DNA from: Methanosarcinaceae archaeon
GTDB taxonomy: Archaea; Halobacteriota; Methanosarcinia; Methanosarcinales; Methanosarcinaceae
DNA: 36,095 nucleotides
Reading direction: 5' to 3'
Assembly: GCA_021106765.1 (NCBI GenBank)
Contig: JAIOTO010000095.1
Span: 1 to 36,095, forward strand
Part shown: positions 4,140 to 36,095 of the stretch, piece after piece
How the letters are laid out: every line of letters starts with the position of its first letter
How positions within the stretch are numbered: position 1 is the stretch's first letter
Program-made: the position numbers and the translations under genes
The notes under the pieces: model-generated
What the model was told of the DNA's origin: nothing
Database searches by the model: none
What the model saw: the letters and a program-made list of their open reading frames with translations, nothing else

Positions 4140-4148
4140 TGGAATAGC

Positions 4149-4177: not shown

Positions 4178-4237
4178 ATCGAGCATAGACCAAAAGTCAG
4201 ATAAACATAGTTTGCATTGAACTATACAGGTGATAAA

Positions 4238-4471
4238 ATGAGAACGTACCTACTTATATGGTACAATAGTGAAGGCGGTCGCCCATCGGAGATCAACCAG
4301 CGTTTGATGTCCCTGGGATTCAAGCCCATGCATGGTACCTATGATTATATCTATGACTGGGGTAACAACGTTGATGTGGATGAGATCCTGAAGATTGGAG
4401 ACAAGGTATGCTTAACCCTTCATAATATGAATGTCACCTTCAAGATCGAAACGATCAATGGCAAGGATTGA
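4238..4471 (+). CDS. Small conserved protein of unknown function
   Basis: 77 residues, soluble, with no membrane segment. It starts RTYLLIWYNSEGGRPSEI and contains several aromatic residues (GTYDYIYDWGNN). The frame is open from 4217, but ATG at 4238 is preferred because GGTGA stands just before it and the protein then begins with its beta-strand. I do not recognise a domain. The pattern of a first strand, a helix (EINQRLMSLGF) and a strand suggests a small alpha/beta fold. It is a single gene between the RPA terminator and the convergent phosphoesterase operon. Confidence 0.65.
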   Translation: MRTYLLIWYNSEGGRPSEINQRLMSLGFKPMHGTYDYIYDWGNNVDVDEILKIGDKVCLTLHNMNVTFKIETINGKD

Positions 4472-4485
4472 TAGTACATTTTATA

Positions 4486-5019: not shown

Positions 5020-5045
5020 GGATCTGTTTCACCAAAAGATATATA

Positions 5046-5834: not shown

Positions 5835-6340
5835 TTATGATTCTCATTTACTTTGAGTCTCTGTCCCATAACTGATATAATGTTAGAGCGTTGTGCCAGG
5901 GAACGAACATGTAAAGCACTTTTATTGAGGGCACGTGTAAGGCTGCTCATTGAATGGTTTCCATCAATTACCAGTGTTTCCAGCTCACGGACAAGGCCTT
6001 CAATTTCTTCATATGGTGCGAAGGTCAACATGAGTATTTCACTCAGATCATCAAGAGAACACTGAAAATTAGCCTGGGCCTTTGAATACGAAGAACGGTA
6101 CTCCTTTTCAGGTGTTTGCCCGGGTTCTGGCATGTGCCACTGGCTTTCAACCAGTCCACATTTTTTCAGTATCTCTATACTGGGTGCGACCTCAAACCCC
6201 ATATCCTCTTTTAGCTCTGATGTTGTCTTCCAATCATCCGTAAGTGCATTATACACTTTCTTATGCTCTTTGGATCTGAATGTTTGAAGAAGAGGAACCA
6301 ATTCGGAAGGGTCATTTATGATTCGGGTTCGTTTGGGCAT
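5831..6340 (-). CDS. ArsR-like winged-helix regulator
   Basis: 169 residues. The segment LQTFRSKEHKKVYNALTDD followed by WKTTSELKEDMGFEVAPSIE and ILKKCGLVESQW is a winged helix of the ArsR/DtxR kind found in many methanogens. The C-terminal half (LSEILMLTFAPYEE onward, to SLAQRSNII) is helical and may dimerise. It is the first gene of the operon with 5046-5834 and 4486-5019. A TATA-like TATTTATTATAC at 6359-6370 (minus strand) puts transcription start very near the ATG, although GGAAAGG before the ATG also fits a ribosome-binding site. Confidence 0.72.
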   Translation of the reverse strand: MPKRTRIINDPSELVPLLQTFRSKEHKKVYNALTDDWKTTSELKEDMGFEVAPSIEILKKCGLVESQWHMPEPGQTPEKEYRSSYSKAQANFQCSLDDLSEILMLTFAPYEEIEGLVRELETLVIDGNHSMSSLTRALNKSALHVRSLAQRSNIISVMGQRLKVNENHK

Positions 6341-6358
6341 ATTCCAACCTTTCCATTT

Positions 6359-6370
6359 GTATAATAAATA
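6359..6370 (-). promoter_or_regulatory. TATA box for the regulator/phosphoesterase operon
   Basis: Read on the minus strand, TATTTATTATAC ends 19 bases before the ATG at 6340. The predicted transcript therefore has a very short leader or none. Confidence 0.4.
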
Positions 6371-6492
6371 CTGAAATAGACTATGAATTGATTATTTTAT
6401 AATAAGGCTTCAGTATACTATGGCACTGAAAGGTAATAAACTTGTTGTGGTTATTGACGATGAACTGCCATTTTTTAAAATGATAGATCGTT

Positions 6493-8823
6493 TCAATCCA
6501 TTGACTGGACCAGAGGGATCAAATGTATCGTATCACCATTGACAATTTCATTTTCGGAAATGGAGACCTCGACCATCTGACCACCATTCTCACTCCACAC
6601 ATGGATCACATCTGCTGGAGCGGTATCATATGGGCAGTTCGTGGTCGCATACGGCACGATTATTTCATACCAGCCATCATCGTCAGCAATGGCTGTATTG
6701 TGGTATTCAAAACTTCGCTCACGGTTCGATGTTATCAAAACAGCAGCATGAACTATATCTCCGGGTGTTGTCTGGCCGACAAGGTGTGCGCCCTTGACAT
6801 ATTCAAATATCTTCACATACTTTACATCCGGATTCGTTGTCACAGTGGTATTTGACTCATACACCAATCTGAAGTGGTCCAGCATAACACCATCAAAGAC
6901 ATGGAGTTGTACAAGCATGGTTTGCTTGAATTTATCATTTTCCACCTTACGCATTATTGTCTTCGAACCCTCGTGTGTGGTGAGGAGATCATAATAACTA
7001 TCTGTTTTTTCTCCAGAAAGCTGTGCAATATTGTTGAACTTTGTTTTCACCATTTCTATATCAGTGATAACATATCGGACATTCCTCATATCCAGTATTT
7101 CATTACCGGCATTCTCATCACTGCTGATGAAGAAATCCGCAGAATCCTTTACACCGGTCTGGAAATTGTTGGCTACTACCGGTCGATGGCCTGTGTATAA
7201 TATCCAATTACCATAGTCCCACCAGCTCATGATCCCATATTCTGCCTGTCCTGTGGCTTCATCGTAGAATGAGGTCTTTGGGGTATTCTGATCCAACCAC
7301 CGAACTGACTCATCCCAATCAGACGGTATCATGGATGGGTTGTTTGCAAGTGATATTCCAGTGTATATGGTTGGAATGAAAAGAAGCATAACAATGATCA
7401 GTGGTATGATGCTTCTTGAAGATCCCCGTTTAGACGATCTGGACCCGCCTTTATCTGGCCGGGTATAGATCGCCATGATCAGATAGCCGCTCAGTATCGA
7501 GATATTGATGGAAAGCAGATATGCAAAACGACTCTGTGAGATGGTAAGTAGCGTGATGACCACTGTCCACACAATGAAAAATGTCAGTTCTGCTGGATAT
7601 TGTTCTTCATTTACTCTTTTAACGATCATCCACGCTGCTATAAGAGCTACCAGTGTGCATAGACCGAAATATTCCCAGAGGTTAACTAATGTGAAACTAC
7701 CATCCACAGCAAAGAACAACGGTGATGCTTCTGATATAGTACCGAGGATCTCCCCTCCTCCAAACAGGTAGTTAATACCGAAGGCGATATTCTGATATAC
7801 ATTTGGAGTGGCAAATTTCAGCGTTAGCAGACCGAGCACTGCCAGTGTGACAACCATGGCCGGATATTTCCACCAATCCATACCCTTTGTATGAAAATAG
7901 GTAGCCGTCGATCCTAGAATACCGATCCCGACAAGGATGATCGCTACATAGATCACATGGAACCCGGAAAGGAACATTGGACTCATCTCCAGCCCGGGTC
8001 GTAATGTGGAGGCAACAACAGGCACCAATAGGATCAGTGTTGTTAGGTACGTACACATTCCGATAATGAACAGATACTGGGATGACCTGCCCGTTTTGAG
8101 ATCGAGGCTGAACTGTACAGGGAGGTACAGGAATATAAGACCAATAAAGATCGGTGAGCCTGCCCATGTTATGACTGCCAGTATCAGGAACACGCCAGAC
8201 AACGCTGCGTATATCAAAGGTCTGGCGATCGTTCGGTCACGATTCCTAAGTTTGGTAAATGTGATATCATTCATCCTGCCGGATCGCAGGGAATAAATAA
8301 ACAGAGCGTATGCAGCCGTGGAAAGAAGGACCTCTGCAGCATGATGATCGGTGGCACCTATCTGGGTGACCATCAGATGAGCCGGCATAAATACAAGAAC
8401 GGCTGCACTCATAAGTGCGATCTTTTTGTCAAAGATAGTTGATGCAGCAACATAGATCGGTATGATGGATAGAGTGCCAAGCAGTGCTGGTAAAATTGCT
8501 CCTGCTACCTCTATTGTGTGCAGATCAGGGTTACCTGCTCCCAAGATCAGGGCAAGCAAGGCAGCGAGCTGATCGTAAAGAGGCGGCCACGCAATATCAA
8601 AGCCATAAGGGTAGTTCAGGTACGAGTCGAACGTGAGATAATCAGGGAAGTTGTGGGTGGTGTGAACGATCCGTCTCATATGGTAAAACGAATCATAACC
8701 AAGGAACATGATCTTGTCATTCGTAAATACTACAGCGGCCGAGAGCGCCCGGAAGATCAGGGCAGCCAGGGCGATGAGTACCAGCAGAGTTTTGTTGTTG
8801 GGGATATGACTACCGATGGACAT
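6493..8823 (-). CDS. aglB: AglB/STT3 dolichyl-phosphooligosaccharide-protein glycotransferase
   Basis: 776 residues. This is the membrane enzyme that transfers a lipid-linked glycan onto Asn in N-x-S/T of secreted proteins such as the S-layer. The first acidic motif is GYDSFYH (D44), the second is GATDHHAAE (D159, H160, H161, E164), the archaeal external-loop motif TISE is at 362-365, and the signature WWDYGN is at 534-539. About 13 membrane segments fill residues 10-490, and the rest is extracytoplasmic. A basic cytoplasmic loop SRSSKRGSSR precedes the last helix. It is the fourth gene of a leftward glycosylation cluster. A TATA box in the 58-base gap upstream suggests that it can also be transcribed alone. 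Confidence 0.95.
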   Translation of the reverse strand: MSIGSHIPNNKTLLVLIALAALIFRALSAAVVFTNDKIMFLGYDSFYHMRRIVHTTHNFPDYLTFDSYLNYPYGFDIAWPPLYDQLAALLALILGAGNPDLHTIEVAGAILPALLGTLSIIPIYVAASTIFDKKIALMSAAVLVFMPAHLMVTQIGATDHHAAEVLLSTAAYALFIYSLRSGRMNDITFTKLRNRDRTIARPLIYAALSGVFLILAVITWAGSPIFIGLIFLYLPVQFSLDLKTGRSSQYLFIIGMCTYLTTLILLVPVVASTLRPGLEMSPMFLSGFHVIYVAIILVGIGILGSTATYFHTKGMDWWKYPAMVVTLAVLGLLTLKFATPNVYQNIAFGINYLFGGGEILGTISEASPLFFAVDGSFTLVNLWEYFGLCTLVALIAAWMIVKRVNEEQYPAELTFFIVWTVVITLLTISQSRFAYLLSINISILSGYLIMAIYTRPDKGGSRSSKRGSSRSIIPLIIVMLLFIPTIYTGISLANNPSMIPSDWDESVRWLDQNTPKTSFYDEATGQAEYGIMSWWDYGNWILYTGHRPVVANNFQTGVKDSADFFISSDENAGNEILDMRNVRYVITDIEMVKTKFNNIAQLSGEKTDSYYDLLTTHEGSKTIMRKVENDKFKQTMLVQLHVFDGVMLDHFRLVYESNTTVTTNPDVKYVKIFEYVKGAHLVGQTTPGDIVHAAVLITSNRERSFEYHNTAIADDDGWYEIIVPYATTNCPYDTAPADVIHVWSENGGQMVEVSISENEIVNGDTIHLIPLVQSMD

Positions 8824-8867
8824 TGTTATCTCTCGGGATTAATGTTTTGTCCCTATAAGGATGTAAC

Positions 8868-8877
8868 AATATATAAG
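8868..8877 (-). promoter_or_regulatory. TATA box for aglB
   Basis: Minus-strand CTTATATATTG lies 45-54 bases before the aglB ATG, inside the 58-base gap after the GT-C-like gene. It predicts a transcript start near 8843 and a leader with GAGAGAT as ribosome-binding site. Confidence 0.45.
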
Positions 8878-8881
8878 AATT

Positions 8882-11680
8882 TCATTGATCATGTTTGTTC
8901 TGAAAAAAACGTCTATAATATTGGAAAAACAAATATCCCAGCATGCACAATAGGAATAGACCGGACACCATCAATGCCTGTTCGATGGTCCGTTGTTCGG
9001 TGAACTCGATCGTTGCAGTACCGTTCAGCGTTCCTTCAATGAAGAAACCATTTGAGTACGAGTTCACCATCATGGGCGCAATGGTATCATTCGCCAAACT
9101 GGCTTCCCATAGAGGATGATAGCTTTCTGCCAATACCATCATAAAGGGGGCAGTTGCATTGTAATGGACGATATATTTTGTAGGGGAGATATGCTCGATC
9201 TCATACACAACATCATCCATACTGTAATACTCGATCATGAGATCGTCGATTTCCATGCCATCATTCTGTGATCGATATGTATCAAGATATATCGTATGTT
9301 TACTGTCAAGGACGTCTGAAACTTCTTCGATGATAGCCTCATGGCCTTCTACCGGTACGATCGCAACCCCATCGACAGCATTTTCCCCCCCCGTATTCTC
9401 CAGGAAGATCTCATAAGTACCCCTGTTAAGTTCCATTGTACCCACATTGAACCATTGGAACCCTCTATACTCAGGGGCATCAGAAGTAGCGTTAAAATAA
9501 TTGTTCCCAATCGACAGGTTCAGAGCACCACGATCAGGAGCACATAATATGTGTACCCAGATATCGTAGGAGCCCGGATCAGTGACATCATATTCCATGT
9601 CGAGTAAAGCATCCCCCCTGGTGATCGCGTATCTACCCCCTCGGGGCAATGCACCCGCCCCCACTATCCCTCCTTCGACATATTCAAAAATGTCGGATCG
9701 TATCCATTGATGCATGATCATCTCTTTCGGTGCCTGACCGGTACCAGGATTCTCTGCAACATCATAAGGGTTCAGTATGTAATCCTGATCAATGAACTCA
9801 AATACCAGCTCGTCCAGATCAGCCGCAATGACCACATTCTCAAACATACCGACATTTTGTTTAAGGTTATCCAGCTGATTCGCATATACCACTGTGACAT
9901 TCCCTGAATTGTTCAAAAGGGATGGCAACACTGACCTGTCACCCACAACAAGGATGGGAGGTGGGGTGAAGCGTACGTGTTCCATGAAACGGAGGTTCTC
10001 GTAGATCGTGTATCCGCCAAAGGTTTTGACCTTCTTGAACGAATCGCTGTGGCTGAACAATTCGTTCAGGGTAGAAGGGGGTGTTTTGTAGCGGCTGGGA
10101 ACGAAGTTCCAATCATTACTGCTTAAAGGATAGGTATCAGCATTCTTTATGACCACATACTTTGTACTGGTGTATCCCAATGCTGATGCAGCGATATCTA
10201 TATTTTTATTTTCAATTAAATCAAAGATATATGTCAGGTATTTGTGAGAATGCGGGTCGGATTGACCGATAGCTATTATTGGTTTGTCTGACACCCATTG
10301 CCATGTGTGACAAATAAACCCATCATACGGCAGGACTGCTACACGAAAAAAACCGTTATGCGATGATATCCACTCACCTGTATCCCTGTAATCGGATGAG
10401 AGATCATATTTTGGATGATGGGTGTAGAGCTCATTGTCTCCTGTGAACATTGGCCAGACAAATATTGCCTGAGATATGATCAACAAAAGTATGACCCCCC
10501 TGGATATGATCATCTTCGATCTTTTCTCAAAAACATGTTTGTCCAGATGCATCCGGATAGAATCAAGGCAGATCGCTGTCAGTAATGAATAGGTCAGGCA
10601 TACAGGTATAAGGAATTTTGATGGTTCTCTGAATGCATAGAAAAAGGGAAAGTTAAAGTATAGCCATTCGTATGCGTGGCTGAAATACATTGTGCCGGTC
10701 GAGAGGACCAGGCACATAAGTCCTATAACAGCAATGATAATGGACAATTTTCTATATTTCCGATCGACGATAGGAATGGAGATATAAGCAAAGATCGGAA
10801 CCACAAAACCCAACATGACCCATGCAGGCGGAAGCCAGTGGTCCAGGTAGATCGTTTCAATAAATGGACTTCCACTTTGTCCGATCAGACGAAACATATT
10901 CAAAAATTCCGTATTCGTGCTTAAAGAATGCACATAATGTATATTGATCAGGGATGGACCGGCATGATATGCTGAAAAGAGCAGTATCTGGATGACGGTA
11001 GGGAGCATAAGGGAGATGGTTACAAAGATCATTCCCCCTGTGCAGATAGCGTTTGATACAAGTTGTTGGAAGGAACGGGATAGTAGGGGCTCGAGTGATC
11101 CATAACTAATGATAAGGAACAGTGAGAGATACAGAAACTGACTTTGTATGGATGAGGTGAATGCAACAACAATAGCAAGTAGAAGTGTCGCTCTTAAGCT
11201 GCGATCTTCAAACATGCTCTGTGTGAGTAACAGAACGAGAGGGAACAGAGCATACCCCACAAGAATTCCCACATGTGCCGAAAGGAATCTGTCAAGTATT
11301 ACAGGATTGAACATATAAATAAAAGCAGCAGTGAAACATGCCATCGGACTACAGGTGTTCCTTCTGCAAAGCACGTACATTGAGATGCCGGATATGGGGA
11401 TTGGAAGTAGTATCCATAAATTACTTGCGATATTGTTTCCCAGCAACAAGAGTGGTATCGAAAAAACACTATAATAATTTATAGGTACCTGTTCTCCTAT
11501 ATTCCTATATGCCCAGGTACTGAATAAGTTCTCAATATGTGGGACGATGCCTGAAAAATCATAATAAATAATTGGATCCGGGGTCAGTAGTTTTCGTAAT
11601 GAGATCACTGATATGAGCAATATGACCAGAAGATAGGGGAGATCTGACCGATCCAACCTTTCATGCATATGGCTCCACAC
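8882..11680 (-). CDS. Large GT-C/YfhO-like membrane protein, probable glycosyltransferase for lipid-linked glycans
   Basis: 932 residues. Residues about 15-415 hold about 12 membrane helices with an early acidic motif (DPIIYYDF, residues 34-41) where GT-C enzymes keep their catalytic Asp. Residues about 420-900 are extracytoplasmic and include a beta-rich stretch (DPGSYDIWVHI, then GTYEIFLENTGG, typical of a carbohydrate-binding module) and the YfhO-like element ESYHPLWEA. A last helix is at about 900-920 with a basic tail (YYRRFFQNKHDQ). GT-C enzymes use polyprenyl-phosphate sugars outside the membrane, so this protein may add a sugar to the glycan before AglB acts. The first codon is GTG (11680), and ATG at 11668 with GGAG before it is a good alternative. 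It overlaps the upstream gene by up to 20 bases. Confidence 0.75.
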   Translation of the reverse strand: MWSHMHERLDRSDLPYLLVILLISVISLRKLLTPDPIIYYDFSGIVPHIENLFSTWAYRNIGEQVPINYYSVFSIPLLLLGNNIASNLWILLPIPISGISMYVLCRRNTCSPMACFTAAFIYMFNPVILDRFLSAHVGILVGYALFPLVLLLTQSMFEDRSLRATLLLAIVVAFTSSIQSQFLYLSLFLIISYGSLEPLLSRSFQQLVSNAICTGGMIFVTISLMLPTVIQILLFSAYHAGPSLINIHYVHSLSTNTEFLNMFRLIGQSGSPFIETIYLDHWLPPAWVMLGFVVPIFAYISIPIVDRKYRKLSIIIAVIGLMCLVLSTGTMYFSHAYEWLYFNFPFFYAFREPSKFLIPVCLTYSLLTAICLDSIRMHLDKHVFEKRSKMIISRGVILLLIISQAIFVWPMFTGDNELYTHHPKYDLSSDYRDTGEWISSHNGFFRVAVLPYDGFICHTWQWVSDKPIIAIGQSDPHSHKYLTYIFDLIENKNIDIAASALGYTSTKYVVIKNADTYPLSSNDWNFVPSRYKTPPSTLNELFSHSDSFKKVKTFGGYTIYENLRFMEHVRFTPPPILVVGDRSVLPSLLNNSGNVTVVYANQLDNLKQNVGMFENVVIAADLDELVFEFIDQDYILNPYDVAENPGTGQAPKEMIMHQWIRSDIFEYVEGGIVGAGALPRGGRYAITRGDALLDMEYDVTDPGSYDIWVHILCAPDRGALNLSIGNNYFNATSDAPEYRGFQWFNVGTMELNRGTYEIFLENTGGENAVDGVAIVPVEGHEAIIEEVSDVLDSKHTIYLDTYRSQNDGMEIDDLMIEYYSMDDVVYEIEHISPTKYIVHYNATAPFMMVLAESYHPLWEASLANDTIAPMMVNSYSNGFFIEGTLNGTATIEFTEQRTIEQALMVSGLFLLCMLGYLFFQYYRRFFQNKHDQ

Positions 11681-12704
11681 CCGCTCCGTATTCTGGAATA
11701 AGGAAGATCGACAGAAGGATCAGCCAATACCAGAGGACGTAGGCCATATCAGGTACAACGATGTGCATGCCTGCCAGTCCGATCACCGAGAACAGGGCAC
11801 ATCCGAGGGGAATGTACTTCAGGTGTTCGATCGCCATCGGATAATTGAACTCGATAGTGTTCATCCTGTCTTCCCCGAGACCTTCTGAGATCAGGCGGCT
11901 TCCAACTCCGAGTACCAGCAGGAAATAGGCATAGATCGCGGACTGCTCGGCCAGGTCTTCCCGATCGTATATCAGGAAAAATGGAGTGATCACGAGCATG
12001 ATCAGGGCGAATATGATGGACTGTGAGGATATAGGTAGGTTCCAGTATCGTTTGAGAAGGGGCGATCCGAAAACGATCGAGATAAGGGTTGATAATGGAT
12101 TGACCCCTCTATCATTGTCCTTCGACGAACTGATACCTGTCCACCGTTTTTCCCGTACTATGGCAAGCAGGGATGCGATGATCATACTGAAGAGTCCGAG
12201 CAGGAAAACTGAGGTGGTGTTGAGTATATTTTCTGCAAATTTCGTTGCAGGGATAAGGAACGATACAGGAGGTATCTTCGACATAGGGGAGGAATCCTGG
12301 TTTGTGTATGTTCCAACATCCTGGATCGTAAGCGTGGTGTATCCTTTCCCTTCCTGTAGGATCGTCAGGGTTATGTCGTCTTTGATCTCGAACAGAGCAC
12401 CAACGGTGAGCTCGTAATATGCTTTATCATCTATGTCAGTGAGACTTTTGTCGATCAGTATCGTGTCATCCTTTACGAACAGAGCACCAGACAGTTTGTT
12501 CTTTTCATCCCAATCCACTCTCAGTATGTCCGCATTGTCAAATGTGATCTCTGCATACCTGGAAGTACCTGCAAATGTCAATTCAAGGTCTGATATTCGC
12601 TCAATGGAATTTCCTTCTATCACTTTTGGTGGTAAAAGGCCGATCAGGCTGTATGATACAAGCAACAGTACCACTGCAAGTATTAATGTTTTTGTTAAGT
12701 TCAT
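11661..12704 (-). CDS. Membrane protein of the glycosylation cluster, function unknown
   Basis: 347 residues. An N-terminal helix (LILAVVLLLVSYSLIGLLPP) is followed by an external beta-rich domain (about 30-150) with strands such as LELTFAGTSRYAEITF and DITLTILQEGKGYTTL. Residues 160-345 hold about five more helices, with a cytoplasmic loop rich in Arg, Lys and Ser (REKRWTGISSSKDNDR). I do not recognise a family. The overlap with the large GT-C-like gene and its place between the flippase and that gene indicate a role in assembly or export of the N-glycan or an associated surface polymer. No usable ribosome-binding site is visible before the ATG, 21 bases after the flippase gene, so translation may be coupled. 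Confidence 0.6.
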   Translation of the reverse strand: MNLTKTLILAVVLLLVSYSLIGLLPPKVIEGNSIERISDLELTFAGTSRYAEITFDNADILRVDWDEKNKLSGALFVKDDTILIDKSLTDIDDKAYYELTVGALFEIKDDITLTILQEGKGYTTLTIQDVGTYTNQDSSPMSKIPPVSFLIPATKFAENILNTTSVFLLGLFSMIIASLLAIVREKRWTGISSSKDNDRGVNPLSTLISIVFGSPLLKRYWNLPISSQSIIFALIMLVITPFFLIYDREDLAEQSAIYAYFLLVLGVGSRLISEGLGEDRMNTIEFNYPMAIEHLKYIPLGCALFSVIGLAGMHIVVPDMAYVLWYWLILLSIFLIPEYGAGVEPYA

Positions 12705-12725
12705 GTTCGTTTATCTATCTGTTTA

Positions 12726-14219
12726 TTACAACCCATTCTCATTAAGTTTTCTGGTAATGTGTAGGATATTCTCTGCAATAAAATTGATGAACCTATGATC
12801 GGGCAGGCCTGAAATGATTATTGCAAGATCTTCTTCGCCCAGCAGGTTCAGGAAAGTGAGTGAAAGCAAATAGATCAAACCACTGATAGTCAGGTCTGCG
12901 AGTATCCACAGCAGCCCGGTGTGAGGAAGCAGGATGAGACTGATGGTGAATATGGACAGGGAAACGATCGTTTTGACCAGTGCGGCGTAATCAGTTTTGA
13001 ACTTGTAATATTGTATGTAGAGGACAAGAAGCGCCAGGAGACCGATCGCACAGGCGATGGTGGTGGATGCTGCTGCACCGATGATCCCATATTCTGGAAC
13101 AAGTGCAATTAACAGGAGAATCTCAACGATAACGGCACATGGCAGGACCACAGCGGGTATTCGTGGGGCATGCCGTGCCTGGAAGATGTGTGTGAACACC
13201 ATTATCATGGCCAGGCATCCCATACCGATTGCTATGATACGTAGTGAAGGAGCTGCAGCGAGATATACATCGGGAAAGATCAGGGTGATCAGGGATCCAG
13301 GTAAGGATGCAACTATTATTGAAGCTGGCAATATGAAAAGGGTGGCGTATTTGATACTTTTCAGGGAATATGCCTCGTTGCCTTCGTGTTTTGATATATA
13401 TGGAAACAGGACCCCCATCATTGCTCCTGTCAGGAATACGGGAAATTGGGCAAGGATAAGGGATGCACGATAATATCCCGCAAGTGTGTTAGAAAGCAGG
13501 CTATCGGTAAGGAATTTAACGCCAAGGATATCGATGTTCATCAGGAGGGTCATACCCAGAGTGCCGAAGAACATGGGTAGAGCAAAAAGGTAAACATGCG
13601 TGTCTGCCCAACCCCCTGTCTTCCAGAAAGTGAAGTCACGAGTGAAGAGTATAGCCAACCCGATCCCTATAAGGCAGCTTATGGGTATGCCGAGCAAAGC
13701 ACCGAAAGCACCGAAACCGGCCTTGACGAGCAACACCCCGAATACAAGTTTGCCAATTGTTATGATAGCCGTGATAATTCCCAATAGTTTGAACCTGAAT
13801 GTACCCTGAAGTATACTGATGTAGACAACCATGGCCGATGTCAGGATCGTTGTAACCACGATCCCCAGGACCAGTTGATCGTATCCTTCACCCAGTTCGA
13901 ATACATGAGTAGTGTATCCCATATAGAAAATTGCAGATAAGACGAGTCCAATAAGGATGTTCGAGACCAGTGAACTCTTGAACACACGGTGTTTCAGTTT
14001 CTCTTCATATTCACCGGAGATAAATTTGGTGGAGGTAAGCGGAAAAGCGGATGTTACAAACAGGGAGAGGATGAGCAGGAATGAGATTGAGACCCCGAGC
14101 ACGCCGAACTGTTCAGGTGTGAGGAACCAACCCATACTGACATTATAGACATAGTTCATAATCGCAGTTATGAAGAATGTTGCGATCATGATGAAGCTAT
14201 TCCGGGATGGATTTGTCAT
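12726..14219 (-). CDS. Wzx/MATE-type polysaccharide flippase
   Basis: 497 residues with about 14 hydrophobic helices across the whole length and no soluble domain. Typical Wzx features are the N-terminal NYVYNVSMGWFLTPEQFGVLG, the repeated SAFPLTSTKFI and the central LLMNIDILGVKFL. Such proteins turn lipid-linked oligosaccharides from the inner to the outer face of the membrane, here presumably the AglB donor. It is the first gene of the leftward cluster flippase - membrane protein - GT-C-like protein - AglB. A TTAAATAG element about 45 bases before the ATG could be its TATA box, and GAGGT precedes the start by about 8 bases. No cytoplasmic glycosyltransferase lies in this cluster, so the glycan must be built by genes elsewhere. 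Confidence 0.85.
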   Translation of the reverse strand: MTNPSRNSFIMIATFFITAIMNYVYNVSMGWFLTPEQFGVLGVSISFLLILSLFVTSAFPLTSTKFISGEYEEKLKHRVFKSSLVSNILIGLVLSAIFYMGYTTHVFELGEGYDQLVLGIVVTTILTSAMVVYISILQGTFRFKLLGIITAIITIGKLVFGVLLVKAGFGAFGALLGIPISCLIGIGLAILFTRDFTFWKTGGWADTHVYLFALPMFFGTLGMTLLMNIDILGVKFLTDSLLSNTLAGYYRASLILAQFPVFLTGAMMGVLFPYISKHEGNEAYSLKSIKYATLFILPASIIVASLPGSLITLIFPDVYLAAAPSLRIIAIGMGCLAMIMVFTHIFQARHAPRIPAVVLPCAVIVEILLLIALVPEYGIIGAAASTTIACAIGLLALLVLYIQYYKFKTDYAALVKTIVSLSIFTISLILLPHTGLLWILADLTISGLIYLLSLTFLNLLGEEDLAIIISGLPDHRFINFIAENILHITRKLNENGL

Positions 14220-14520
14220 GTTGGATACCTCTGGTCGATGTGGTAGATATGGTAGAAGCTATTTAAGAACACCGATAGGTAGCTCAGGGGTCTAACGGCA
14301 GAATATACGGGAATCAGCTTCCTCACACGATTGTTCCATCCGTCACAAGACTCAAATGATCGTATCTCAAGAAGAATGCATACAATTAATTAATACTGTA
14401 TTATGGGTTGAAACTGTTAAACTCAGGATACATATTTGTATACACTGAGTGGATGGTAGTATCTTAAAACCTAAGATCTGCCCAGAAATAGCTTAATGGA
14501 TACACTAACAATTTGATACT
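14220..14520. other. Intergenic region between flippase operon and thermosome terminator
   Basis: No gene with a plausible start and ribosome-binding site was found here. The right edge joins the thermosome terminator. The left edge holds the flippase promoter. A short stretch near 14277 (GTAGCTCAG) looks like a tRNA D-arm, but no anticodon or T-arm follows. The rest is A+T-rich and unrecognised. Confidence 0.5.
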
Positions 14521-14564
14521 CAAAAAAATGAAATAAAAATAAATGCGCAGTATATCACTGCGCA
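14521..14564 (-). terminator. Terminator hairpin of the thermosome gene
   Basis: A perfect 8-bp stem TGCGCAGT / ACTGCGCA (14544-14551 and 14557-14564) with a 5-base loop lies 27 bases after the stop codon. On the minus strand it is followed by a T-rich tract (TTTATTTTTATTTC, then T7). The stem shares ACTGCGC with the RPA terminator. Confidence 0.85.
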
Positions 14565-14591
14565 GATACACTATTTTGCAATATTTCCGAA

Positions 14592-16238
14592 TTACATTCC
14601 CATGCCAGGTGGCATTCCACCCATACCTGGTGGCATTCCGCCTTCAGCACCGGCTGGAGGGTTGGAAGATGCAATGACATCATCGATCCTCAGGATCATC
14701 ACAGATGCTTCTGCGGCGGCGTTGATAGCCTGGGTCTTGATTCTGAGTGGCTCGACAACTCCTGCTTCCCACATGTCGATGACCTTTCCGGTATAGACAT
14801 TGAGACCTGCTGTTTTCGTGCCTTTCTCATGGTGTGATCGCAATTCTACAAGCATGTCTATTGGGTCAAGACCAGCATTCTCAGCGAGAGTACGTGGTAT
14901 GATCTCAAGTGACTCGGCGAATGCCTTCACTGCCAGTTGTTCTCTGCCGCTGAGGGTTGCTGCATATTCCTGTAGTCTCAATGCGACTTCCACTTCTGGA
15001 GCTCCGCCACCGGCTACAAGTTTCTCGTCCTCAATAGCAACAGCGACAACACGAAGTGCGTCTTCCAGTGCTTTCTCAATATTATCGATGACGTGCTCTG
15101 TGCCGCCACGAAGTAATATGGACACGGACTTGGGGTTGACACATCCTGTAATGAAGATCATGTTGTCACCACCGATCTTCTTTTCCTGCACAAGTTCAGC
15201 ACTACCAAGCTCATCTGCGGTCATCTCTTCGATGCTTGTCACAAGCTTACCACTGGTGGACCTGACTAGTTTTTCCATGTCACTCTTCTTGACACGCCTG
15301 ACTGCAAGGATACCTGCCTTTGCCAGGAAATGCTGTGCCATGTCATCAATACCCTTCTGACAGAATACCACATTGGCACCGCTGTCGGTGATATTTTTGA
15401 CTATGTTTTTGAGCATCTGTTCTTCCTGGTCAAGGAAGGACTGCAGCTGGTCAGGGGACGTAATAGAGATCTCTGCATCCATTTCGGTCTCTTTAAGCTC
15501 TATTGCACTATTGATCAGTGCGATCTTTGCACCCTCTATTACCTTTGGCATGTTGGTATGCACACGCTCTTTGTCAAGGATCATTCCTTCAATAAGTTCG
15601 GAGTCACCGATGCGGCCACCGACCTTCTTCTCTACCTTGACATTATCGATATCGACGGTGTTACCATCTGCCTGGTCGACAATGCTGATAATAGCTGACA
15701 CTGCGATGTCACCAAGAACATCTTTGGATGCTTCGGCACCTTTTCCGGTCATGGCTGTCCCTGCTATGTTTATCAGAGACTCTCTGTCATCGAGAGTAAC
15801 TCCCTTTGCAAGGTTCTCGAGGATCTCTCCTGCCTTATCAGCTGCCATTCTGTAACCGGCAGCAATGATCGTTGGGTGAACATCCTGCTCGATCATGTCC
15901 TCGGCCTTTTTGAGCAGTTCTCCTGTAACCACTGCTGCTGTTGTAGTACCATCGCCGACCTCATCATCCTGCGTCTTTGAGACCTCGACGATCATCTTCG
16001 CAGCGGGGTGTTCTATATCCATCTCTTTTAAGATAGTGGCGCCGTCGTTGGTAATGACCACATCACCGAGAGCATCCACAAGCATCTTGTCCATTCCTTT
16101 TGGACCAAGCGTGGTTCTGACTGCTTCAGCAACTGCCTTTGCGGCCATAATGTTGTTACTCTGAGCATCCCTACCTTTTGTTCTCTGGTTACCGTCCCTT
16201 AATATGAAGATCGGCTGTCCAGCCATTTGTCCTGCCAT
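14592..16238 (-). CDS. ths: Thermosome subunit (group II chaperonin)
   Basis: 548 residues, the standard length. It forms the double-ring ATP-driven protein-folding machine of archaea. Visible motifs are [11 protein letters not shown] (43-53), ITNDGATIL (62-70) and the ATP-site [11 protein letters not shown] (94-104), together with VAGGGAPE in the C-terminal equatorial domain. The protein ends in the Gly-Gly-Met-Pro repeat tail [16 protein letters not shown], typical of euryarchaeal subunits. It is a single-gene unit with its own TATA box (16317-16324) and a strong hairpin terminator. The ribosome-binding AGGAG is 12 bases from the ATG, somewhat far. Expression is expected to rise on heat shock. 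Confidence 0.97.
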
Positions 16239-30121: not shown

Positions 30122-30534
30122 TGCATTGTGTGGGTGACTTATCCCGATTCATAATCTCATTATTGTCCGGCAGTCTCTATAAATCAATTATTTCAAACAA
30201 TAAGAATGAGATATAGACACAGGGGCTGACAAATGGATTCAGATGTGTATGAAGAATTAATTTTTGCACAATAAAAACAAATCAAAAATCATACTAACCA
30301 GACAAAAATAGAAGTTTCTAAGGGGTATTCTCAGAATCTTCTACGGAGTTGCAAAGCCTTTATCAACTTTTTTGTTTGTTCTTTCAACACCTCCAAAATT
30401 TAACATATTATAATATGCATGATGCCAGACCAGAGCCATTCGGTCTGACATCTCACCCGATTAGGAGAATACTTTATTTGCGTTTTCAAAGATCCTCATT
30501 CGTGGATACTTTTCACTCAAATTGGAAGCAGATC
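30122..30534. other. A+T-rich gap between por and the divergent methyltransferase locus
   Basis: Apart from the possible transposase remnant I see no gene here. A 13-codon open stretch starts at 30234 on the plus strand (MDSDVYEELIFAQ) without a ribosome-binding site and is not called. Confidence 0.5.
30300..30437 (-). pseudogene. Possible transposase C-terminal remnant
   Basis: On the minus strand an open stretch reads MALVWHHAYYNMLNFGG, then VERTNKKVDKGFATP, a TAG, and RIPLRNFYF. The string VERTNKKV resembles the VER-x-NRK motif near the C-terminus of several DDE transposase families, and HHAYYN resembles another transposase motif. No upstream catalytic part, no inverted repeats and no start with a ribosome-binding site were found. 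It lies in the 448-base gap between por and the mtbB paralogue, a plausible place for an island edge. The identification rests on motif memory only. Confidence 0.3.
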
Positions 30535-31935
30535 TTATCTGTTATACAACACATCAACACAGGGGATCTCAATATCAAGTGTCTTTGCAATATTTGCTTT
30601 TGCCTGTATTCCTTTAATCGCCCCTGGCACCGCATTAATTGTTCCAAATCCTAGTTCTTCTCTAACTTCTTTCATTATGTACTCATCTGCCAGTTCAAAT
30701 GGATCAAGCCCTCCAAGCTTATCACCAACATATTTTTTTGCATCTGCAAGTTTCATTCCATTCATTTGCATTCTCATAACAAGATCGCCTGCAGTTCTGA
30801 TACCATTCATTCCAACTGCCATATTCATTGCGCCATCCATGCCGAATGGATCACCCACTCCTACCTATATACCATCCACTCCTGTCATTTCCACAGTTGC
30901 CTTTACACATCTTGTAACTGCATCTATGGGTGGTATTTCTACCATTGGGATACCTCCGACACCCATGCCCATATTTACATGAACTGGAATATCCGCATCT
31001 TCAACACATCTTTTGAGAAGAGTAACTGTCTTTGCTAGATTCCAGGGTGTGCTCTTTTTGGTTTTTATGTTAACAACACAACCAAACATATCTGCTCCGG
31101 CTTTTGCTACCGACTTCACCTGTTCATGCGGATATTGACCAGCCAGTCTTTCCCCATTGTATTCAAGTCCACCATGTATGCCTAAGACGAATTCATTAGC
31201 CATTCCTATATAGGCAGACAAACGAGTGGTTTTCTTGATCTGTTCAGTTGCCTTAAGTGTTGCAAGGAAATCACCATCTCCAGCAGCCGCTGTAGTATCA
31301 AGATTTAGTCCATCAGTGCCAATAGGATCAAGTACCGCTTGTGCACTCCATAGAAGATCTTTTTCTACAGCAACCATAGCATCCTCATATGCAGCAAGAC
31401 CCTTTTCAATTTCACCATTAGATATTAAGTCACCAGCGTTATCATATGGACCTTCGGGTTTGTAATAATTGCCAAGGTTTGGTACAATTAAAGGCTCCAC
31501 GGGAGATATGGTCCTCATCAAAGTGTCTTCTAAGCTTTGTTGTAGTTGGGTAGCAGCCGGTTTCAGATCTTTGTTCATGAGATTCAAATTTGAAACCAAA
31601 TGATAATCCGCAGCAAATCCTCGTTCCATTACCAAATTAGCTGTGGTATAATCCATTGGGATCCCTACACCGCCATATTCGCCATAGTTCCCAAATAATC
31701 CCATTCCACCAACATCAGCGCTCAGAATAACCCTATTTTCCTGAGAGACACTAACCATTTTGTCTGGAATTAGAAAAATATCCAGAAGATGATCTTTTTC
31801 ATCATCCGTTAGTTCGGGTATCCGGCCCATCTCAGCAGCTAGCTTTGACCCTTCATCGATATCATAAATTATTTCTTCTTTTGTCATTTCAACAGGTCTT
31901 GCGTCACCCATTCTTTGATGATAAGTTGTAGCCAT
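30535..31935 (-). CDS. mtbB: MtbB paralogue (dimethylamine-type corrinoid methyltransferase) with in-frame UAG = pyrrolysine 357
   Basis: 466 residues if UAG at 30865-30867 is read as pyrrolysine; M. barkeri MtbB has 467 residues with Pyl356, so the length and position fit. The site reads VEMTGVDGI-Pyl-VGVGDPFGMDG, against AGVDGI-Pyl-VGVGDP in the known enzyme, and NLDTTAAAGDGDF, HVNMGMGVGGIPM and the end EVREELGFG are retained. The protein is clearly divergent from the canonical MtbB whose end lies at 1-158. It should demethylate a methylated amine and methylate the corrinoid protein encoded at 31957-32610; whether that amine is dimethylamine is uncertain. ATG 31935 is chosen because AGGAG lies 9 bases before it. 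The frame's TTG at 31944 touches that site. Confidence 0.88.
30865..30867 (-). other. In-frame UAG codon (pyrrolysine 357 of the MtbB paralogue)
   Basis: TAG on the minus strand in the exact context GGT-ATA-TAG-GTA-GGA. The two parts on either side are homologous to one continuous MtbB. Read as stop it would remove the last 109 residues, which are conserved in the family. Confidence 0.9.
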
Positions 31936-31956
31936 TCCAATCAACTCCTAATAATC

Positions 31957-32610
31957 TTATTTATTCATTAATTCAAGGGCTTTACCGTATGCACTAGCAG
32001 CATCCTCTGCATAAGCATCTGCACCGATCTTCTCTGCCCAATGCTCTGTGCATGGAGCACCACCGATCAATGTTCTATATTTGTTTTTCAGTCCTTGTTC
32101 TTTCAGCATTTCCTCTAAGGATTTTTGAGCCACCATTGTAGATGTCATTAGTGCAGAAGTAGCGATTATATCTGCGTTTACTTCTTTTGCTTTTGTTATG
32201 AAAGTAGTAATCAATACATCTCTACCCAGATCAATAACTTCAAATCCGTTCACACTTAGGAATATCTTTACGATATTCTTCCCAATATCGTGAACATCCC
32301 CTTCTACGACACCAAGCACAATGGTTCCGATTTTATCTGCTTTTTCATTACCCATATACTCCTGAAGTTCTTTTACTGCATCAGTCATCAAATTTGCAGA
32401 CATCATTAATTGTGGGAGAAAACGCCTACCCATTTCAAACTCCATACCAACTTCCTGCATACCCCTTGAAAGACCGTTTTCAATCATTTCCAATGGTTCT
32501 ATTCCCGCATCTAAACCGTTCTTAATTGTTGTTTCAAGCAATGTTTTGTCTGTATTAATTACAGCATCGCTTAAATCTTTCAAAATAGCAGCATCATTTG
32601 AATTTGTCAA
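31957..32610 (-). CDS. mtbC: Corrinoid protein, MtbC-like
   Basis: 217 residues. A four-helix cap (LLETTIKNGLDAGIEPLEMI, then GRRFLPQLMMSANLM) comes before the cobalamin-binding Rossmann domain with DVHDIGKN (His107 is the lower cobalt ligand), the SALMTSTM helix and the late GGAP motif. It carries the methyl group from the MtbB paralogue to the coenzyme M methyltransferase, which is not in the window. The frame is open from 32721, but that would overlap a small membrane gene. TTG at 32610 with AGGTG before it is the credible start. A terminator-like hairpin stands between it and the upstream small gene. It is 21 bases upstream of the mtbB paralogue. Confidence 0.9.
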   Translation of the reverse strand: MTNSNDAAILKDLSDAVINTDKTLLETTIKNGLDAGIEPLEMIENGLSRGMQEVGMEFEMGRRFLPQLMMSANLMTDAVKELQEYMGNEKADKIGTIVLGVVEGDVHDIGKNIVKIFLSVNGFEVIDLGRDVLITTFITKAKEVNADIIATSALMTSTMVAQKSLEEMLKEQGLKNKYRTLIGGAPCTEHWAEKIGADAYAEDAASAYGKALELMNK

Positions 32611-32633
32611 TATTTTCACCTTCTTATTTTTTT

Positions 32634-32663
32634 TAAAAAAAAAGTACCCAATTTTATTGGGTA
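32634..32663 (-). terminator. Terminator/attenuator hairpin between the small membrane gene and the mtbC-like gene
   Basis: Minus-strand TACCCAAT-AAA-ATTGGGTA is a perfect 8-bp stem at 32645-32663 followed by C and nine T. It is 24 bases before the TTG of the corrinoid gene. It would end or reduce transcription of the permease part of the operon, so methyltransferase genes may need their own promoter or read-through. Confidence 0.65.
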
Positions 32664-32677
32664 TTTCGTTTAAACTA

Positions 32678-32827
32678 TCACATAAATTTACGAGCAAAAG
32701 TCCTTGCCTGCCAAAGAGCAAATGCAGAGATGATTAAAATAACAACCATCCACGTTATTTCGGCAGCAGGCATTGGACCTGCCCAATAACTATAGTATGT
32801 TTCAAGTGCAACTTCTGATTGTACCAT
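32678..32827 (-). CDS. Small single-helix membrane protein (49 residues) of the methylamine locus
   Basis: ATG 32827 to TGA 32678-32680; shorter than usual gene-calling limits. The sequence starts VQSEVALETYYSYWAGPMP and has one clear membrane helix of about 18 residues (ITWMVVILIISAFALW) followed by a basic tail (ARTFARKFM), so the N-terminus should be outside. GGAGG is about 9 bases before the ATG. It follows the winged-helix gene by 12 bases in a run that begins with the permease, which suggests an accessory subunit of the permease. I recognise no family. The short basic tail after a single helix is typical of small transporter partners, but this is inference. Confidence 0.7.
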   Translation of the reverse strand: MVQSEVALETYYSYWAGPMPAAEITWMVVILIISAFALWQARTFARKFM

Positions 32828-32839
32828 ATCATGACCTCC

Positions 32840-33121
32840 TCATAAACTCCTAAAGCATGACTCTGATGCTCGAACCTTTCCATAGTCGGTGATGCCATAT
32901 TTCCGAAGCAAGTGGCCTGTATCTTCATCAATTTGTGCTTCCAGACTGGATATTAGCCCTCCTGAAGCAAGTTCTATTAGATCAAAATTAATAGAAGATC
33001 TTCCATAATCATCGGTCATTGCATACTCTTCCCCAACGGTTTCAATAATTTCATTATTCCAATGTGCTTTACCGTCAGACATGATTTCAAGTATTCTGAA
33101 TTTTAATGGACGCAACGTCAT
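32840..33121 (-). CDS. Winged-helix protein of the methylamine locus
   Basis: 93 residues. LRPLKFRILEIMSDGKAHWNN shown as LRPLKFRILEIM and SDGKAHWNNEIIETVGEEY is the start of a small winged helix, with RSSINFDLIELASGGLI as the recognition helix and YGITDYGKVRA at the end. It may sense the substrate or simply regulate this locus. ATG 33121 is chosen because AAAGGTGA precedes it by 6 bases; the frame also has a TTG at 33127 that touches that site. It is the second gene of the leftward set, 16 bases after the permease gene. Confidence 0.75.
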   Translation of the reverse strand: MTLRPLKFRILEIMSDGKAHWNNEIIETVGEEYAMTDDYGRSSINFDLIELASGGLISSLEAQIDEDTGHLLRKYGITDYGKVRASESCFRSL

Positions 33122-33137
33122 TTTCAATCACCTTTCC

Positions 33138-34178
33138 TTAAGTCCTTATAGACTCCTCTTCGGTCACATCTTCACTGAACATAACAGCAGCACCAGCAAT
33201 ACCCAAAGCTCCACCTATCAACAAACTGGAATCTGGTACGGAACCAAAGAAAAGGTATAGGGCAACTACCACTACGACCACATAAAGAATGGTAATTCCT
33301 TGAGCTCTCGCAATACCGATCAATGGGAAGGATTTGTACCAGCAGACATATTCATAACCAAATGCCAAACCCGCAAAGAACATGACCATCATAACAAGTG
33401 GATCAAAGAACGCAAGAGCATATGTGTACATTGGGAATCCAACCAGTGCAAGAATGGGTATAACAATAACCCACCAGATCGCGGTTTCACTAATAAACCT
33501 CAAATGAAGCGCAGCGTCCGGTTCTGCAACATCTAGACCTTTACCGGCAATGGCACCTTCAACACCCCATCCAATAGGGATCATAAGTCCTCCAATAATT
33601 CCTATTAAAGGAACACTTGCACCCAGTTCACCAGTAATACCCGCTCCAAAAATAACAATTCCGCCACAAATCATAAAGAACATACCTACAAGTGCTCTCT
33701 TGGTAATTTTCTCTCCATACCAACGATTAGCTAGTATTGTACCAACTACAGGATAGAGTAGAGCTGCAACTGCAGCAAATGCTGCACCGACGAAACCCAT
33801 AGCAATAAAAGACCCAAGAATTGCAACAGGACCTCCAAATATAGAAGCTGCAAAGAACCATTTTGTACATGGATGAATTTCACGCATGGTTCTTTTAAGT
33901 TCACCTAATTTGCCAAGTGAACCATTCCAAATTGTAAGAACTACTACAACAGCTAATGCATTGAAAGCTGTTATCAATACCGCAGTAACAAGTAGTGCAG
34001 CAACATCTCCACTTTCGACCGCAATATCACCATACATTGTAGCAAATGGATCCAATACCCAGAGTACACTGCCTGGCAAATACCAGAGACCCCATAATAT
34101 GGTGGCAGTCATTGCCCACATATATCCTGAACGCTTCTTCAATACATTTTGATTTTTTAATACAGCTTTCAAATCCAC
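33138..34178 (-). CDS. mttP: MttP-like methylamine permease (EamA/DMT-like fold)
   Basis: 346 residues with about ten hydrophobic helices. The N-terminus KKRSGYMWAMTATILWGLWYL, written here as KKRSGYMWAMTA and TILWGLWYL, and LPGSVLWVLDPF are followed by GWGVEGAIAGKGLD in the middle. The overall DMT-like pattern and its place next to mtb/mtt genes match what I remember of the methanogen methylamine permeases. It should bring the methylated amine into the cell. GTG 34178 is the start, with GGAGGAGG at 8 bases. It is transcribed leftward from a TATA box at 34247-34254, divergent from the mttB-family gene. Confidence 0.82.
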   Translation of the reverse strand: MDLKAVLKNQNVLKKRSGYMWAMTATILWGLWYLPGSVLWVLDPFATMYGDIAVESGDVAALLVTAVLITAFNALAVVVVLTIWNGSLGKLGELKRTMREIHPCTKWFFAASIFGGPVAILGSFIAMGFVGAAFAAVAALLYPVVGTILANRWYGEKITKRALVGMFFMICGGIVIFGAGITGELGASVPLIGIIGGLMIPIGWGVEGAIAGKGLDVAEPDAALHLRFISETAIWWVIVIPILALVGFPMYTYALAFFDPLVMMVMFFAGLAFGYEYVCWYKSFPLIGIARAQGITILYVVVVVVALYLFFGSVPDSSLLIGGALGIAGAAVMFSEDVTEEESIRT

Positions 34179-34246
34179 AAGTAAAACCTCCTCCTTAATT
34201 TACGTAAGCCAATCACTATGGCCATAATCACCATTAAGTCGTATGG

Positions 34247-34254
34247 TATATAAA
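34247..34254 (-). promoter_or_regulatory. TATA box for the leftward permease operon
   Basis: Minus-strand TTTATATA, 69-76 bases before the permease GTG. It predicts a transcript start near 34222. Confidence 0.6.
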
Positions 34255-34423
34255 CATTTCTGTCACCGGCAGATACTGTTAAATATAGGACTTGTTTGAT
34301 GGCCTTAATATCCTTAGAGAATGGTTACAAAGACATATTTTGACCTTATTTCCCCCACATTAGTGGTTTTTGGCTTCTTTTGAATAATGCTGTATATAAT
34401 GCTTTCTATTCTTAATCGAAAAT

Positions 34424-34432
34424 GATATATAA
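34424..34432 (+). promoter_or_regulatory. TATA box for the mttB-family gene
   Basis: GATATATAA with GAAAA just upstream as a possible BRE, 70-78 bases before the ATG. A second TATA-like TATATAAT is at 34393-34400. The 323-base gap between the divergent genes (34179-34501) holds both promoters and no gene. Confidence 0.6.
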
Positions 34433-34501
34433 TAGAACTACTCATTGAATCTATATGGATGAGGGAAATCCAACCATCCTATCAAAGGAGGAATAAAGAA
34501 T

Positions 34502-35950
34502 ATGATAAGCAACATGTACAACGTGCTTTCAACAGAAGAATGTGAAGCCATTCACAGGGCTACTTTGCAAATATTTGAAAATCCAGGAATAATGGTTTCA
34601 GATGCTGAAGCCAGACAGATATTTGCTGATGGCGGATGTGAAGTTGATGAAAAAAGCAAAATGGTAAAGATCCCAGAGTATATTTTAAAAGACGTTTTAA
34701 GGACGGCACCGTCAAGATTTACTGCTCATGGCCGTGATCCTAAACACACTCTAGACATATCAAACAAGGGAAAGGTCCATTATACGAACTTCGGGGTGGG
34801 CGTAAAAGTAACTGAATATCAAGGTCCTGGAAAATACATCAATAGAGGATCTACTGAAGAAGATTTAATAAATTTAGCAAAAATAATAGACTCGTTAGAT
34901 AATATTGACTACTATCTTAGCCCTGTGACGGCGTCCAATCTCACAGGTGAAGCAGATTCAAATATGCATGAAGTAATTGCACCTATGGAAAATACCGTAA
35001 AGCACATTATGATTGCGGATGCCGAAATGGATAATGTTGAAAACTATTTTGGATTAATGAAAGCCTACTATGGAGGAGATGAAGAAGAAGCTCTAAAGAA
35101 ACCAATAGTTACCACTGCAGCCTGTCCAACAAGTCCTCTTGAACTTGGTTACAACTCATGCCAGGTAATTATAAAAAGTGCAAGATTTAATATACCTGTA
35201 AATACGGTTTCCATGGCTATGGGCGGTGCATCATCACCTGTTCAAACCGCAGGGACTTTAGTTACCCACAACGCGGAGGTGCTTTCTGCTTTTGTACTTT
35301 CCCAGTTGACAAAACCTGGATCCCCCATGTGGTATGGTAGTTCAACTACAAATTTTGATTTGAGACAAGGAACTTCTGCTGTAGGTTCACCAGAACTTGC
35401 CCTCATTAGTGCTGGAGTGGCTGCACTCGCAAAATACTATGGACTCCCATCCTTCACAGCCGGCTCATAGAGCGATTCTAAATTGCCTGATGCACAAGCA
35501 GCCCATGAGTCTACTATCACCGGAATTCTTCCGGCGCTTGCTGGCATAAGTTGTGTTTATGGTGCAGGCATGCTTGAGATGGGAATGTCGCTCTCAATAG
35601 AACAGTTGTTAATTGACAACGACATTATTTCCATGATAAAGCAAGCAACTAGGGGAATTGCAGTCTCTGAAGAAACACTTGCTTTAAGCGTTATCAGGGA
35701 CGTCGGTGCTGGTAATAATTTCCTTGCACACAAGAATACAAGAGATAATATTGACTATCCTTCAGATCCAATGCTATTTGACAGGAAAATGTATGGAGAC
35801 TGGGCTGCTGCCGGTTCAAAGGATATCGTAGCTGTTGCACACGAAAAAGGTATTGAAATACTAAATAACTATAATGCCGAGCCAATAGATGGTGATATTC
35901 TCAAAGATATGAGAGCTATTGTAGCTGAATGTGACAAGAAATTTAAATGA
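34502..35950 (+). CDS. mttB: MttB-family methyltransferase with in-frame UAG = pyrrolysine 323
   Basis: 482 residues when UAG at 35468-35470 is read through; M. barkeri MttB has 495 residues with Pyl334, so this protein lacks some N-terminal residues but keeps the site. The context is PSFTAGS[17 protein letters not shown]. Conserved family strings are [63 protein letters not shown] and [16 protein letters not shown]. It would move a methyl group from trimethylamine, or a related quaternary or tertiary amine, to the next corrinoid protein. GGAGG is 10 bases before the ATG. Confidence 0.9.
35468..35470 (+). other. In-frame UAG codon (pyrrolysine 323 of the MttB-family protein)
   Basis: The TAG joins two parts that are continuous in the family, with no frameshift and no ribosome-binding site after it. 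The TTG at 35483, which would be needed for an independent downstream start, has no ribosome-binding site. Confidence 0.9.
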
Positions 35951-35971
35951 GTTATATAAGGAGATTATAAT

Positions 35972-36095
35972 ATGTTAACACAGGATGAAATAAATGAGAA
36001 AGGTAGTGCTGCTGTACAAGAATTTGACAACGATGCAGTTGTTGCAGCATCACAGGAAGCGATAGACGCAGGTGTTGACCTCGTATCCTTTATTG
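35972..36095 (+). CDS. mttC: MttC-like corrinoid protein, N-terminal part (runs off the window)
   Basis: 41 residues before the window ends. LTQDEINEKGSAAVQEFDND and the helix AVVAASQEAIDAGVDLVSFI fit the N-terminal helices of methylamine corrinoid proteins. AAGGAG is about 9 bases before the ATG, and the gene begins 21 bases after the mttB stop. The cobalamin motif lies beyond the window. Confidence 0.8.
   Translation, partial: MLTQDEINEKGSAAVQEFDNDAVVAASQEAIDAGVDLVSFI

Follow-up and report, generated by a model that had tools for sequence, protein, structure and literature searches.

Among the described systems close to the locus reported here is the canonical trimethylamine (TMA)/dimethylamine (DMA) operon of Methanosarcinaceae, mtbC-mttB-mttC-mttP-p95-small transmembrane (TM) gene-mtbB, in which MttB acts on the tertiary and MtbB on the secondary amine. 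Additional methylamine methyltransferase copies are also familiar from Methanosarcina, where the MtmCB, MtbCB and MttCB isoforms of a genome are near-identical. The locus that we analyzed lies at positions 30535-36095 of the window, which is an entire contig (C119, 36,095 bases) of a Methanosarcinaceae archaeon binned as 1.74 Mb in 134 contigs; the same family includes Methanosarcina and Methanolobus. It holds the gene families of the canonical operon with pyrrolysine (Pyl) codons at the same positions, and its mttP-p95-small TM block, here placed before mtbC-mtbB, is alike and in the same order. The locus differs in that its MtbB and MtbC (MtbB' and MtbC') and its MttB (MttB') are of other subfamilies, with conserved positions changed, and in that mttB'-mttC' is divergently transcribed. 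Its enzymes are extra copies, as are the Methanosarcina isoforms, but differ at about half of positions.

Corrinoid-dependent amine methyltransferases outside the canonical set have also been described. A 2026 study identified MtqB, an MtmB homologue without Pyl, as a demethylase of choline and tetramethylammonium and so as the first enzyme of the choline route (PMC13044021), and the MtqB/MtqC system of Methanococcoides methylutens Q3c stands outside the canonical set as the present locus does (PMC13044021). MtqB serves quaternary amines, whereas the window encodes Pyl-type MttB and MtbB and no MtqB; the resemblance extends to relatives, in which MtqB-related non-Pyl MtmBs are linked to MttB' or MtbB' and MtqB-like pairs can be likened by gene arrangement. 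MtgB and MthB, non-Pyl members of the MttB family for glycine betaine and phosphocholine, serve as accessory enzymes of the MttB superfamily for amines other than TMA, as MttB' would. Their substrates are quaternary amines and neither contains Pyl, whereas MttB' keeps Pyl and should therefore act on a tertiary amine. We propose, with a probability of roughly 0.58, that the locus is an accessory module for the two-step demethylation of R-N(CH3)2 and R-NH-CH3, in which R would be larger than methyl.

MtbB' and MttB' outside the canonical clades

MtbB' and MttB' are two separate subfamilies, both outside the canonical clades. The initial annotation described MtbB and MttB paralogues with an in-frame UAG, and each gene indeed holds exactly one, at the Pyl position of its family. 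Against hidden Markov models, MtbB' scored 452 bits on TIGR02368 (cut-off, 369), with its UAG aligned to the Pyl of other MtbBs, and MttB' scored 644 bits on TIGR02369 (cut-off, 525), with Pyl334, Tyr364 and Gly110 present. The identity of MtbB' to canonical MtbB is about 47-48%. Across the 186 genomes of the order that formed the comparison set, MtbB' occurs in nine, from seven genera, mostly together with an MtbC' of the same clade; relatives at 51-62% identity are found in only eight genomes, and the other MtbBs among the matches listed lie at 45-49%. A single-protein query with MtbB' against 84,980 genomes returned no relative; an alignment-based scan did. In the tree, MtbB' forms a nine-row clade with support of 100/100, in which the protein of genome G091 is sister to that of the window, and the clade stayed separate when bacteria, Methanomassiliicoccales and other archaea were added. 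The approximately unbiased (AU) test rejects placement of the window MtbB' inside the canonical clade (p 2.7e-6) as well as a single clade of MtbB' and canonical Methanosarcinaceae MtbB (p 5e-4), ruling out a recent in-paralogue of the canonical enzyme. The MtbC' tree runs parallel, MtbC' grouping with the corrinoid proteins encoded beside MtbB' (100/99) and again having G091 as sister.

MttB' is one of the 11-13 rows that make up an accessory clade (support 100/96 and 99/97), and joining it to the canonical clade is rejected (AU p 0.002). The clade contains the MttBs of the MtbB' loci in G091, G174, G113, G141 and G109 along with second Methanimicrococcus copies and copies from G078 and G170; the AU test also rejects accessory MttB plus G109 without G170 (p 0.003), but only because the G170 MttB nests with that of G109. 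Long end branches are present in both the MtbB' and the MttB' tree. The initial annotation would have regarded the locus as an ordinary copy had both paralogues grouped within the canonical clades of close relatives in the same gene order; they group with accessory copies of other genera.

The permease, in contrast to those of G091, has a long branch within the canonical MttP clade, and membership in a ten-row accessory permease clade is thereby ruled out. The MttC beside MttB' is near canonical MttC, that of the same genome in the window (over 41 residues only) and in G109 and that of the same genus in G091, so MttB' may share the canonical MttC. With a permease, p95 and small TM gene of canonical type accompanying accessory enzymes, the locus is therefore a mosaic. 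A corrinoid gene and a permease, of the EamA type, are present as first annotated, but the permease and extra small genes are not peculiar to the locus: they are the canonical mttP-p95-small TM set, 54-60% identical to that of the canonical operon in the Methanosarcina-group genome G154 and in the same order. The idea of an accessory set distinct from canonical copies thus stands, except that its permease and small genes are not separate from them. G091 shows the same mirrored architecture but accessory-clade permeases. Permeases beside MtbB' in relatives are of EamA and APC types.

Acquisition of the locus by transfer, already suspected, is likely: the stretch is A+T-rich as described, with a G+C content at third codon positions (GC3) of 0.29-0.32 against 0.454 ± 0.068 in 47 background open reading frames (ORFs), and members of the clade are scattered patchily among seven genera. 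A transposase remnant at the locus edge, which had also been suggested, was not found, the edge ORFs giving no Pfam match and no plasmid match being found; only a non-coding repeat of ~150 bp is present there.

Changes at conserved positions and selection

Residues of MttB' were numbered by alignment to the solved M. barkeri MttB (PDB 7xcm). MttB' keeps G110, M249, Pyl334 and Y364, whose roles are among those discussed in PMC9842639, and carries N in place of C108 and A in place of L217, with altered residues at S150, L151, R156, H181 and H182. Positions C108, S150, L151, R156, H182 and L217 vary little or not at all among 41 canonical and six Methanomassiliicoccales MttBs and are replaced in the accessory enzymes, with C108N in all 12 tabulated accessory MttBs and in G170, and small residues for L217 across the group. 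M249, Pyl334 and Y364 are kept across the accessory MttBs, as is G110 except in G109. From their location at the ends of barrel strands, we infer that the changed positions line the substrate pocket.

Of the 214 columns that never vary in the canonical enzyme, 37 are lost in 9/9 members of MtbB'. Fourteen of these 37 fall within residues 82-120 (p 5e-6, for a region chosen post hoc), where the canonical motif DQxNxS has become N(Y/F)xExG, D86, N89 and S91 being replaced by N, E and G in all nine; D86, N89, S91, R99, E116 and H119 are conserved in 16 other, mostly bacterial, and nine Methanomassiliicoccales MtbBs. All family-invariant MtbB residues are retained, and the catalytic core is kept in both MtbB' and MttB'. 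In an AlphaFold model, residues 82-98 form a loop behind barrel strand 1 and Pyl360 is on strand 8; this model was built from 40 sequences, with a predicted local distance difference test score (pLDDT) of 90 compared with 64.7 from nine sequences, and a search with it returned no close solved structure for MtbB'. The MtbBs of G078 (contig C115) and G170, which are of another branch and near the clade-X MtmBs described below, are likewise changed at 86, 87, 89, 106 and 337.

These changes bear on whether the locus might encode isozymes that still act on TMA and DMA but serve when conditions differ (low concentration, nitrogen supply or salinity), like the near-identical mtm, mtb and mtt isoforms of Methanosarcina. 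Such a set would agree with an MttP, p95 and small TM gene that are canonical in type and order, with an mttC' start almost identical to the MttC of the genome and with scores above the MtbB and MttB equivalog cut-offs, but we consider it unlikely given the low identity to canonical MtbB and the separate clades, the alteration of positions kept in canonical, bacterial and Methanomassiliicoccales MtbBs, and the non-Pyl methyltransferase families linked in relatives. Of the two explanations offered in the initial annotation, another methylated amine is thus more likely than other conditions, because of the pocket changes and the linkage to non-Pyl methyltransferases.

MtbB' is under purifying selection, with dN/dS of 0.05-0.14 between pairs whose synonymous sites are near saturation. 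A decaying or mis-assembled copy without function would explain why repeats stand at both contig ends, why end branches are long and why an mttB' 3' tail precedes another mttC copy on contig C131. We nevertheless find this very improbable, since the dN/dS values are low, the frames are intact and hold a single UAG apiece, no family-invariant MtbB residue is lost, G091 has the same mirrored gene order and mttC' matches the MttC of its own genome.

Proposed substrates and linked non-Pyl methyltransferases

In the proposed module, the permease would import a methylated amine. MttB' would hold the tertiary amine, R-N(CH3)2, in an adduct with Pyl and pass one methyl to an MttC-type corrinoid protein, MtbB' would likewise demethylate R-NH-CH3 with transfer to its own corrinoid protein MtbC', and MtbA or an equivalent would deliver the methyls to coenzyme M. 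The series R-N(CH3)2 to R-NH-CH3 to R-NH2 fits because the locus has MttB and MtbB and no MtmB of its own. If the order of the reactions and the size of R are as we infer, R would be larger or more polar than methyl, and the substrates would therefore be close analogues of TMA and DMA rather than TMA and DMA themselves. Our leading guess, as yet unproven, is that R is ethanol and the substrates are dimethylethanolamine (DMEA) and monomethylethanolamine (MMEA), because both are intermediates as Methanococcoides converts choline to ethanolamine (PMC7374477) and because no enzyme demethylating either was found in the literature searched. The only substrates named there for Pyl enzymes are TMA, DMA and monomethylamine.

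The linkage in relatives involves a clade of non-Pyl MtmBs (clade X) found in nine of the 186 genomes, and 9/9 of these carry accessory MttB' and/or MtbB' (p 4.5e-10 on a base of the 98 genomes with MttB, with accessory status assigned only to tree-placed copies and, for G084 and G085, read from the rows that their Methanimicrococcus loci occupy in the trees as named records). Clade-X MtmB is in the same locus as MttB' or MtbB' in six genomes (G158, G078, G091, G109, G084 and G085), the frame in G085 being interrupted by stop codons. Candidate mtqC-mtqB pairs, recognized by their arrangement of a corrinoid gene with a non-Pyl MtmB, occur in G098, G170 and G078, and the pair in G078 sits between two MttB'-MttC pairs. 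As a separate observation, the MtbB adjoining the candidate pair in G098 (L136 7561-8970) belongs to the canonical clade, but its branch is long (0.3), which could reflect adaptation to a different substrate.

In Methanosarcina sp. 2.H.T.1A.6 (G158) and in G078, MtbB' stands beside two sister tandem MttBs with nearly shared pockets, one having Pyl334/Tyr364 and the other Trp334/Phe364, which looks like loss (or gain) of Pyl inside one small clade. The shared pocket suggests that a single R group may be taken first as a quaternary and then as a tertiary amine. That the first step in these genomes resembles a non-Pyl/Pyl MttB pair (Pro108, Asp150, Cys217) rather than an MtqB-type enzyme, and that several permease types (EamA, APC) lie beside MtbB', would suit a quaternary-amine series other than choline, such as carnitine, gamma-butyrobetaine or glycine betaine. 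This would be a variant of the module with larger R, with which it shares probability, and we view it as doubtful; Methanococcoides growing on betaine stop at dimethylglycine and use neither dimethylglycine nor sarcosine (PMC7374477), which makes glycine derivatives less likely.

Several observations weigh against a module for amines with larger R. In the fragmented bin of the window, neither a clade-X MtmB nor an MtqBC-like pair nor a non-Pyl MttB was seen, save a non-Pyl MtmB of a widespread clade on C131. MtbB' is present in only 1 of the 11 genomes of genus g6, putatively Methanococcoides, and because the other ten lack it though use of choline and DMEA is reported for several Methanococcoides strains, MtbB' is not the sole route for DMEA or MMEA. 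The canonical MttP-type permease and the few legible codons of mttC', which hardly differ from the MttC of the same genome, are both compatible with plain TMA. Finally, the lost MtbB' positions are not enriched over all barrel-mouth loops (p 0.18).

On the sequence evidence, it is possible, though at less than even odds, that MttB' and MtbB' are Pyl enzymes whose specific substrates, a tertiary and a secondary amine, are not TMA and DMA, serving as the DMEA and MMEA demethylases of direct choline methanogenesis or in the same steps for another quaternary amine. If so, Pyl-dependent catalysis would extend beyond the three simple methylamines. The locus and its relatives in the cultured Methanosarcina sp. 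2.H.T.1A.6 and Methanohalophilus profundi supply concrete candidates and residues for the DMEA and MMEA steps. Caution is also due in annotation, where TIGR02368 and TIGR02369 label MtbB' and MttB' as DMA and TMA enzymes.

Gene content and contig ends

The mtbB' frame as read from a TTG has Pyl at residue 360, and its start is likely the ATG at 31935, behind AGGAG, judging from start codon and ribosome-binding site; mtbC' likely starts at the TTG at 32610, behind AGGTGA. MtbC' passes the general Pyl corrinoid model TIGR02370 (cut-off, 215.3 bits), and its 231.9 bits on the MtbC equivalog NF041607 are under the cut-off of 350. No significant Pfam or NCBIfam match was found for p95. The permease operon and mttB' are divergently oriented, the permease being the sole MttP-type copy detected in the assembly, and pylS is present in the same bin.

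Table 1. Coordinates of genes and repeats of the locus in the window and of linked genes in relatives
Feature	Sequence	Positions	Strand	Description and basis
mtbB'	window	30535..31935	-	divergent dimethylamine-methyltransferase-family gene; TIGR02368/PF09505 and trees
mtbC'	window	31957..32610	-	corrinoid protein cognate to MtbB'; TIGR02370, 232 bits; clade with MtbB'-adjacent corrinoids, 100/99
small single-TM protein, 49 amino acids	window	32678..32827	-	canonical mttP set; 57% to homologue between p95 and mtbB of canonical Methanosarcina-type operon
p95, ~93 amino acids	window	32840..33121	-	mttP set; 54-57% to canonical-operon homologue
MttP-type EamA permease	window	33138..34178	-	PF00892; canonical MttP clade, long end branch
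mttB'	window	34502..35950	+	divergent trimethylamine-methyltransferase-family gene; TIGR02369/PF06253; accessory clade 100/96 and 99/97; pocket residues
mttC' start	window	35972..36095	+	first 41 codons, then contig end; 39/41 residues as in own-genome MttC
non-coding repeat, ~150 bp	window	30270..30420	.	locus edge; 80% identical to C10:1745-1888
clade-X MtmB loci	L222-L230			
clade-X MtmB	L043	11357-12730		
clade-X MtmB	L044	15846-17240		
candidate mtqCB pair	L132 (G078)	5124-7269		
candidate mtqCB pair	L254 (G098)	9674-11727		
candidate mtqCB pair	L259 (G170)	3396-5455		
sister tandem MttBs	L044 (G158)	11516-15218		
sister tandem MttBs	L046 (G078)	6144-10066		

Each end of the contig lies within a repeat, mtbB on the left (common to C10) and mttC on the right (common to C90 and C131). 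The 3' end of a canonical mtbB was correctly placed at 1-158 of the window (63-64% identity to MtbB' over 39-40 residues), and a por operon lies upstream of the locus as described; the locus had been called complete, but mttC' breaks off at codon 41, since the contig runs out inside the mttC repeat. The bodies of canonical mtbB and mtbC are absent from the bin, probably because of such repeat breaks, and a canonical mttP could be absent as well. The second copy of the ~150-bp repeat (on C10, equivalent to L062 1745-1888) is downstream of the other, canonical mtbB/permease, and the repeat downstream of both methylamine loci is perhaps a shared regulatory or mobile remnant.

On C131 (L057, 1-2179), a short mttB' 3' tail and another mttC copy come after the widespread-clade non-Pyl MtmB. 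A flanking repeat of ~113 bp is also present on C106, and the arrangement looks like recombination around mttC. Elsewhere in the window, a 263-bp direct repeat (2541-2803 and 2865-3127, 92% identical) lies inside a replication factor A gene and is probably a duplicated OB-fold.

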